NCBI RefSeq assembly: GCF_030463535.1
Contig: NC_132880.1
Location: 39,995,842 to 40,059,841, forward strand
Origin: Salminus brasiliensis
Lineage: Eukaryota > Chordata > Actinopteri > Characiformes > Bryconidae
Direction: 5' to 3'
DNA: 64,000 nt
Within the stretch, counting starts at the first letter, position 1. The number at the start of each line of letters is the position of its first letter. This document shows, in pieces, positions 55,501 through 58,344 of the stretch. The translations under genes and the position numbers were made by a program. Below the pieces are notes generated by a model that searched no databases, had not been told where the DNA came from, and saw only the letters and a program-made list of their open reading frames with translations.

Positions 55501-58344
55501 GAGATCAAAGTGTGGGCCATCGCCTGCTTTGCTCCTCAGAGACAATGCACAGAACTGCTGCTGAAGTAAGTGCATGATCTCTCTTGTGGTGTTTTTGTAC
55601 TGACAACTGTCTGTTTCAAATCATTTTCTTTAAGTAGAAAATCTGAAACCTAAGATGATTGCTGTATATTTTTATTAGCACCATCAAACCCTGTCATTGT
55701 CTGTTTGTGTATCTGTAGAGCATTTACAGACCAGCTGCGCAAGATTTCACGTGACGCAGGAATGCCCATTCAAGGCCAACCCTGCTTTTGCAAATATGCC
55801 CAGGGAGCTGACAGTGTGGAACCCATGTTCAAGCACCTGAAATACACCTACCAAGGTCTGCAGTTGGTTGTGGTCATCCTGCCAGGGAAGACTCCTGTAT
55901 ATGGTAAGTGAGTCTACCCTTTGTGTTAATACGCTGCTATCTTATTTGCACGTCTTGGGATGTCACTGTAGTATTTGTTACTATTTCCACTTTGTACTCA
56001 TTTTAATGTGAATATCTCATAGCGGAGGTGAAGAGAGTCGGGGACACTGTTTTGGGAATGGCCACACAATGTGTCCAAGTAAAGAATGTCCAGAAAACCA
56101 CTCCTCAGACCCTCTCCAACCTCTGCCTGAAGATTAACGTTAAGTTGGGTGGCGTCAACAACATTCTACTTCCCCAGGGAAGGTAAGGATACTTCTATTT
56201 TATGATAAATAATGAAGCAGATGTTTAAATTGGAATACTTACTGAGGAGTTTTTTTTTTTTTTTTTTTTTTTAGTGTGTTGAAGGCAATTTGTAGTAGTC
56301 TTCGTAAATGCGCAAACTCTGATGTTTGATGTTTGCTGTCCAGGCCCTTGGTGTTTCAGCAGCCAGTCATTTTTCTGGGTGCAGATGTGACCCATCCTCC
56401 AGCAGGTGATGGAAAGAAGCCCTCCATTGCTGCAGTAAGTCAAATTATATTTCACTGTACTGGACAATACTTACTATATACTTTGGTAGTTAGCAGATGT
56501 AGTACACTAACAGGGACTGTAAGGGAGGGCATGTTTTAGCATGATTCACAAACCAGGAAACGTCTGATGTACAGTTTCATGTGACAGTTTTGCTAATATG
56601 TTTGTCTAACAAACTGCAGAGCGCAACTTTAACACTAATTGTTGCTGAATGTCTGGTTTAGGTGGTCGGTAGTATGGATGCTCACCCCAGCCGATACTGT
56701 GCCACAGTGCGGGTTCAGCAGCATCGACAGGATATTATTCAAGACCTGGCTACAATGGTCAGAGAGCTGTTGATCCAGTTTTACAAGTCCACTCGCTTTA
56801 AACCCACACGTATCATCTACTACAGAGATGGGATTTCAGAAGGCCAGTTTAATCAGGTAAACTATTGGCATATAGCTGTTTAGATACGGTTGTCATTTTT
56901 TATGAAACACATTTGCTTGTGTGCAGCTGTGTGTTATGTTTTTTCTTGCTTTTATGTAGGTTCTGCAACATGAGTTACTGGCAATCCGTGAGGCCTGTAT
57001 CAAACTTGAGAAAGACTACCAGCCAGGCATCACTTTTGTTGTGGTCCAGAAAAGGCACCATACCAGACTTTTTTGTATGGACAGGAATGAAAGGGTTGGT
57101 TATTTACAATTTTACTAAACCATGTTACAGATCACTGGTTACTTAAAATTGTGTGTTATTTTATTCGAGATGTTTGGATCTCTTTGTTCTAGGTTGGGAA
57201 AAGTGGGAACATCCCTGCTGGCACCACAGTTGACACAAAAATCACTCATCCATCAGAATTTGACTTTTATCTTTGCAGTCATGCTGGCATTCAGGTACTA
57301 CAATTATTAAATGTAGAGAGTATTTGTAATAAACACATTTTATACTTACTGTAACAAAAAAAACATGCTTTGACTAATCTGCTGCAGGTTGAGGTACCAC
57401 AGCCTCTTGATTGGTTAGTGTGAATGTTTTAAGGAAATAATTTTACTCATCAAGGAAATTTTATGATGTTTGACTTCACTCCATAGGGGACTAGCAGACC
57501 ATCTCACTATCATGTGTTGTGGGATGACAACCATTTCACCTCGGATGAGCTACAGGTGCTAACCTACCAGCTTTGCCACACATATGTGCGCTGCACTCGC
57601 TCTGTATCCATCCCTGCACCGGCCTACTACGCCCACCTAGTGGCTTTCCGTGCCCGATACCATCTAGTAGACAAGGAGCATGACAGGTATGCCTGCCAAA
57701 GGTCTAATAGCATAAATAGCATGAGTGGTTGATGTGAAAATGACATTTTCTCAAATGCAGTTACATTTTTCTTTTTTGTCCAGAATGTTGTCTAAACTTT
57801 AATTTTTCAGTGTAACGCTAATTGGTTTCAGATCCTCACGCATAATGTACAGAAGTATAAGATCAGAAACACAGGAGAACAAACAACAGTTAGAATAACG
57901 TTTTATTAATTGAGGGGAAATTAGTTTTGCAGCTCCTATATTACCCTTGTGCCAAACCTAACTAGCGCTTGTACTTTGGATCACTAAAATTGCATATATA
58001 ATGATTATTATACCTTGATCAGCCAAATCATTAACACCTAATGACAGATGAAGTGGAAAACATAGATTTTCCTCACGTACAGGGTTATCTGTCAAGGGGT
58101 GGGATATATCTGTTAAAAGTGGGGGGAAATGGGCATGCATGGGGATATTTGCCACTTTGACAGAGGCCAGATTGTCTTTTAAAGATAACATAAAACAAAA
58201 GCTTTGTATGTGTGCTTTCTCTTGTGCCTTTGCAGCGCTGAAGGCAGTCACACGTCAGGGCAGAGTAATGGCAGAGACCATCAGGCCCTGGCCAAAGCTG
58301 TGCAGATCCACCAGGACACACTGCGTACCATGTACTTTGCCTGA
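49582..58344 (+). CDS. ago2: ago2, Argonaute 2 (complete, 19 coding exons, slicer tetrad altered)
   Basis: Argonaute 2 loads miRNA/siRNA guides as the core of RISC. Coding exons: 49582-49606, 52548-52728, 52827-52947, 53091-53272, 53544-53680, 53782-53916, 54001-54088, 54748-54895, 54986-55105, 55194-55316, 55432-55565, 55719-55903, 56023-56182, 56344-56434, 56662-56856, 56960-57094, 57193-57294, 57487-57686, 58236-58344. All phases close: 2571 nt, 856 residues (human 859). By analogy with human: N domain to ~136, PAZ ~223-343, MID ~442-577, PIWI ~578-856. MID 5'-phosphate pocket residues Tyr526, Lys530, Gln542, Cys543, Lys563 and Lys567 are present, as are the C-terminal serine cluster ([11 protein letters not shown]) and Ser384 in RSAPDRQ. 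AGO2, not AGO1/3/4, is indicated by [23 protein letters not shown] and the His in [12 protein letters not shown] residues are Asp594, Asp634, Asp666 and His804: the usual glutamate is Asp, and the core Phe is Tyr663. Exon 1 encodes only eight residues plus one base. Confidence 0.97.
51517..51832 (-). mobile_element. MITE family A copy (reverse orientation), in ago2 intron 1
   Basis: Read on the minus strand it carries GGAGCATTGCTGTGAGGATT, CCACCCCACCTCAA, ACAGTTCCTGGAGCAGTTCC, GAGAGTCCTATTCTATTG and GAAGGGGTGTC. Both ends are incomplete. Confidence 0.65.
51919..51958. repeat. (CA)n microsatellite in ago2 intron 1
   Basis: About 20 uninterrupted CA units, followed by an A-run and a shorter GT stretch near 51973-51995. 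Confidence 0.95.
54140..54440. mobile_element. Possible decayed inverted-repeat element in ago2 intron 7
   Basis: TTTCAGACATGTGCGGTAAC near 54174 has an inverse partner around GAACATGTCTGACATTG near 54342. The interior holds several CAGACAT words. It may be an old hAT-type MITE; only one copy is present in the window. Confidence 0.3.

Follow-up and report, generated by a model that had tools for sequence, protein, structure and literature searches.

The analyzed stretch of Salminus brasiliensis DNA (64,000 nucleotides, C3:39995842-40059841 of the 1.066 Gb genome; referred to as the window) harbors a complete ago2 gene on the plus strand (49582-58344), which is divided into 19 coding exons and comprises a coding sequence of 2571 nt for a protein of 856 amino acids. 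Zero internal stops were encountered across the rebuilt coding sequence. The exon boundaries were hand-picked at frame-keeping GT/AG sites, and the presence of GT/AG at all introns (18/18) is therefore given by construction. In this hand-built model, coding exons 1 to 19 are located in this order on the plus strand at 49582-49606, 52548-52728, 52827-52947, 53091-53272, 53544-53680, 53782-53916, 54001-54088, 54748-54895, 54986-55105, 55194-55316, 55432-55565, 55719-55903, 56023-56182, 56344-56434, 56662-56856 (exon 15, which holds both substitutions described below), 56960-57094, 57193-57294, 57487-57686 and 58236-58344.

Pfam analysis of the ago2 product revealed the domains ArgoN, ArgoL1, PAZ, ArgoL2, ArgoMid and Piwi, in order and in a single open frame. 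Among PDB entries the best match was the argonaute-2 chain 4ola_A (1889.3 bits), and lower scores were obtained for the other paralogues argonaute-1 (1678), argonaute-3 (1622.9) and argonaute-4 (1610.5). The AGO1 and AGO3 entries are taken here to be human proteins. As the PDB table is without species, the human origin of the AGO2 and AGO4 entries was drawn from passages of the literature; 4w5o, which belongs to the same sequence group as 4ola, is human AGO2 according to PMC10772731. With the PDB score being highest for AGO2 and the domain order complete, the window gene is, as judged from its sequence, the vertebrate AGO2 orthologue. Relatives of exon 15 were also sought in viral and prokaryotic contigs, where 5 and 44 pattern matches were obtained, respectively, of which 0 were confirmed by tblastn. 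Rfam detected no family at the gathering threshold in the window.

Two convergent distal-less-type homeobox genes are found at 38398-40900 (+) and 45195-47689 (-). Pfam detected parts of a homeodomain on either strand, with DLL_N present on the minus strand in addition, and the N-termini of the two genes look like those of dlx6a and dlx5a, which we presume them to be. The start codon of the minus-strand homeobox gene (47689) and that of ago2 (49582) are divergent and ~1.9 kb apart; a full-text literature search found no record of dlx5a together with ago2. AT-rich tandem arrays with units of ~64 and ~131 bases and a 76-base TA run (45707-46200) separate two homeodomain parts of the homeobox gene on the minus strand. 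Downstream of ago2, the minus strand contains a 378-aa open reading frame (61393-62526) with Sleeping Beauty HTH, Tc3-type HTH and DDE_3 domains in Pfam, which by these domains is a Tc1/mariner-like transposase.

Slicer center and binding scaffold of ago2

An initial annotation of this DNA had proposed that the slicer center of ago2 carries two substitutions, and both were recovered exactly as claimed from the rebuilt coding sequence. Upon alignment to the PDB chain, the codon GAT at 56731-56733 (+) encodes Asp634 at the position of the glutamate finger (human E637), and TAC at 56818-56820 (+) encodes Tyr663 (human F666), three residues before the catalytic Asp666. Retention of the remaining catalytic residues was likewise confirmed, namely Asp594 (56384-56386, +; human D597), Asp666 (56827-56829, +; human D669) and His804 (57634-57636, +; human H807). 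Hence, three of the four residues are retained and the tetrad reads D-D-D-H, not D-E-D-H; of the D-E-D-H that characterizes a slicer-competent Argonaute, the finger is replaced by Asp in the window ago2. When the genome was searched with exon 15, the same exon was returned with a listed identity of 98%, and the same Asp and Tyr were read at the locus, which as part of the same assembly is no independent check of the reads.

Compared with the argonaute-2 chain, ago2 differs at 55 of 840 positions over human residues 20-859 (785/840 identical) and at 15 of 244 positions over residues 575-818, with E637D and F666Y among the latter. The chance of 15 random changes covering both named sites is 0.0035, a post-hoc value weakened by the selection of the sites only once both had been noticed.

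An importance of the finger for cleavage is documented: mutation of the equivalent Glu in a yeast Ago abolished slicing, and the human finger was described as critical for cleavage and dispensable for RISC assembly (PMC10772731). The Glu is conserved even in the inactive AGO1 and AGO4 (PMC9262622), and the role of the finger is also treated in PMC11893014. For the human structure, the excerpt of PMC10772731 prints D637 once, while the PDB chain has E at this position. The same review underlines how critical AGO2 slicing and miR-451 are to vertebrates, and its excerpted passages are silent on a loss in fish (PMC10772731).

Outside the tetrad, F676, R635, the central loop 709-714 and the serines 824, 828, 831 and 834 (human numbering) are identical in ago2. 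The same holds for human positions 529, 533, 545, 566 and 570, which presumably are the guide 5'-end contacts. The central loop has been described (PMC11893014). The window ago2 is thus like human AGO2 (PDB 4ola and others) in its overall identity, in D597, D669 and H807 and in the retained residues listed above, and unlike it in having D for E637, Y for F666 and Asn at 387. A guide- and target-binding and microRNA scaffold that is intact would fit these data. The initial annotation had regarded the microRNA repression scaffold as intact, and this statement stands as a fit, to which the 785/840 identical residues and the conserved guide-binding positions and C-terminal serines contribute.

At human residue 387, ago2 carries an Asn (exon 55194-55316), whereas a Ser is present in one and an Asp in four of the five printed PDB chains; the position is counted among the 55 differences either way, because Asn matches neither of them. 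We take Ser387 of human AGO2 to be a phosphorylation site, which with the Asn would be absent in ago2. The human pair R315-H316 is K-Y in ago2 (exon 54748-54895), and the PDB includes an R315V/H316A mutant of AGO2.

The AGO family and the miR-451 precursor of S. brasiliensis

Exon 15 and a 240-residue PIWI stretch served as queries in protein searches, which together with reading of the loci yielded at least five AGO1-4-type genes in the S. brasiliensis genome. This number is a lower bound, because the search scores the best candidates only. Among the genes found, one is ago2, the window gene. Both ago3a (C1, 94.86 Mb) and ago3b (C3, 27.18 Mb) encode D, E, D, H and Phe, and their stretches over exons 15-16 have argonaute-3 as best PDB match. 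E and F are also present in ago1 (C1, 94.92 Mb), in which Arg replaces the catalytic His, while ago4 (C3, 43.84 Mb) has E and Tyr, with Gly for the third catalytic residue and Arg for His.

These five genes were compared with the four human AGOs, giving nine rows. Asp at the finger was observed in fish ago2 alone (1/9), and Glu in the other eight, that is, in 4/4 human AGOs (PDB chains) and in ago1, ago3a, ago3b and ago4 of the fish (4/5 genes found); the finger change is therefore not a paralogue trait. Phe at the 666 position is shared by human AGO1-3 and fish ago1, ago3a and ago3b. Tyr was found in three of the nine rows, fish ago2 and AGO4 of both species, and is thus otherwise restricted to AGO4 in this comparison. 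Although Tyr is common to ago2 and these AGO4 proteins, human and fish AGO4 have Gly at the D669 position and fish ago4 has Arg at H807, both of which are kept in the window ago2. With human AGO3 and with ago3a and ago3b, the window ago2 has the Argonaute family and three of four catalytic residues in common; it differs from them in D-D-D-H versus D-E-D-H, and scores lower to human AGO3 than to AGO2. Three weaker Piwi-like matches (two on C6 and one on C20, 37-40% identity) have Ile or Val where human AGO2 has F666, so that Phe at this position does not extend to all of the wider family.

In an 83-residue PIWI stretch that surrounds the site, no difference separates fish ago1 from human AGO1 or fish ago4 from human AGO4 (83/83 each), and identity to human AGO3 amounts to 96.4% for ago3a and 95.2% for ago3b. 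The fish sequences of this comparison were located a second time at their loci. For ago2 an identity of 91.6% to human AGO2 was obtained (7 differences), which makes it the least conserved of the five AGO1-4-type genes over this stretch.

Mature miR-451 gave one exact match in the genome, adjoining mir-144; zero mismatches were allowed in this search, so that variant copies are possible. Both mir-451 and mir-144 reach the Rfam gathering score. In the fold of the pre-miR-451 hairpin (z -6.8), guide G6 is unpaired and lies opposite a G, so that the genome with this ago2 also has a G-G mismatch in its pre-miR-451. The Rfam consensus opposite G6 is a weakly conserved c, and the column is unpaired in the structure line; since the base at this position varies in the family, the G-G alone is no proof of compensation. 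In the human precursor the base opposite G6 is, we assume, a U. The seed mismatch that Chen, Sive and Bartel described for fish is said to be the G-G in pre-miR-451. The title of their paper states that cleavage by Ago2 is enhanced by a mismatch in the seed, which also rescues part of the defect in fish (Chen, Sive and Bartel 2017, cited in PMC11811051 and PMC7765534). The G-G observed in S. brasiliensis fits the rescue named in this title.

Relation to the teleost Ago2 defect and alternative explanations

The two substitutions of teleost Ago2 reported by Chen, Sive and Bartel are said to be E-to-D and F-to-Y, and the positions of the two PIWI substitutions in the window ago2 match this pair. 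It was described that substitutions in teleost Ago2 impair slicing and that sterlet retains the ancestral motif (PMC7765534, citing Chen, Sive and Bartel 2017). For zebrafish, Ago2 was reported to lack efficient slicing due to two teleost point substitutions (PMC11811051, citing Chen, Sive and Bartel 2017), and from the zebrafish injections of that study it was deduced that an extensively matched target is not efficiently cleaved (PMC11811051). The letters of the two fish substitutions are not printed in the excerpted passages of PMC7765534, PMC11811051, PMC10772731, PMC11893014 and PMC9262622, and those of PMC6175985 and PMC9303283 contain nothing on fish Ago2 slicing. The equation of the two changes with the published teleost pair, made in the initial annotation, is backed by the literature as far as substitutions that impair slicing are concerned, and is probable as regards the residue letters. 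A second proposal, that slicing is impaired in S. brasiliensis as well, gains plausibility from the identity of ago2, both substitutions, the literature on teleosts and the G-G in pre-miR-451. The S. brasiliensis system would resemble the teleost (zebrafish) one in two PIWI substitutions, reportedly at matching positions, and in the seed mismatch of pre-miR-451, which is a G-G here and reportedly also in fish; it differs in being another genome.

The data are most readily explained by an ordinary teleost Ago2 that very probably carries the published lesion: slicing would be strongly reduced, the microRNA scaffold would be intact, and some cutting would be retained for miR-451. A teleost origin agrees with the duplicated ago3 and with both substitutions. 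Asp lacks one methylene of the Glu side chain and would position the water/Mg2+ network poorly, and the Tyr hydroxyl would disturb the core beside the catalytic strand. Owing to both effects, slicing is expected to be slow yet nonzero. Guide loading, target binding and TNRC6-driven repression would proceed normally. Maturation of miR-451 requires cutting by Ago2, and miR-451 would still be made, because its precursor carries the G-G opposite guide G6, which is of the type that enhances cleavage according to the title of Chen, Sive and Bartel 2017. Asp might also partly replace Glu, in which case the residual activity of ago2 would be larger than assumed.

An alternative that we consider unlikely is that slicing has moved, with ago3a and/or ago3b now performing the needed cutting and ago2 being left free to drift. 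In both copies D, E, D, H and F are retained and argonaute-3 is the best PDB match for exons 15-16, and human AGO3 acquires slicing activity when loaded with some trimmed guides (PMC10772731). However, human AGO3 is also D-E-D-H (PMC10772731), so that this tetrad in the fish genes is probably just ancestral, and the human protein falls far behind AGO2 when the guides are of the ordinary ~22-nt type (PMC10772731). The G-G in pre-miR-451 moreover suggests that ago2 still cuts the miR-451 precursor. A divided role, in which ago2 would retain only as much activity as the mismatched miR-451 precursor needs and ago3a and ago3b would supply any remaining target cleavage, for instance by means of trimmed guides under stress or infection, appears similarly improbable.

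It is even less probable that D634 and Y663 are neutral, hardly affecting slicing while other differences in ago2 compensate. Such a view could draw on the positive BLOSUM62 scores of E637D and F666Y (+2 and +3), on the 13 further changes in residues 575-818 and on the Ile or Val of the Piwi-like matches of the same genome at the 666 position, but the finger Glu is found in all eight other rows compared and was named catalytic (PMC10772731), and impaired slicing in teleosts has been reported (PMC7765534, PMC11811051). It is hardly credible that sequencing or assembly went wrong here, or that this is an additional ago2-like copy instead of the working gene: although each of the two codons is a single base away from a codon for the human residue, the ago2 frame is intact throughout, one ago2 was found among at least five AGO1-4-type genes in a search that scores the best candidates, and both changes are reportedly those of teleosts.

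The substitutions in ago2 are accordingly a further instance of an already published phenomenon, since teleost Ago2 substitutions that impair slicing are on record and the residue pair is reportedly the same. New is the combination observed in one genome: a set of AGO genes with, among those found, the Asp finger in ago2 only, a pre-miR-451 with G-G and a pair of ago3 genes with D-E-D-H and Phe. The present analysis adds one genome, with its miR-451 precursor and the AGO genes found, to the published account of poor RNAi in most bony fishes. Together, the AGO set and miR-451 turn possible slicing by the intact ago3 pair, in place of an impaired ago2, into a testable question.
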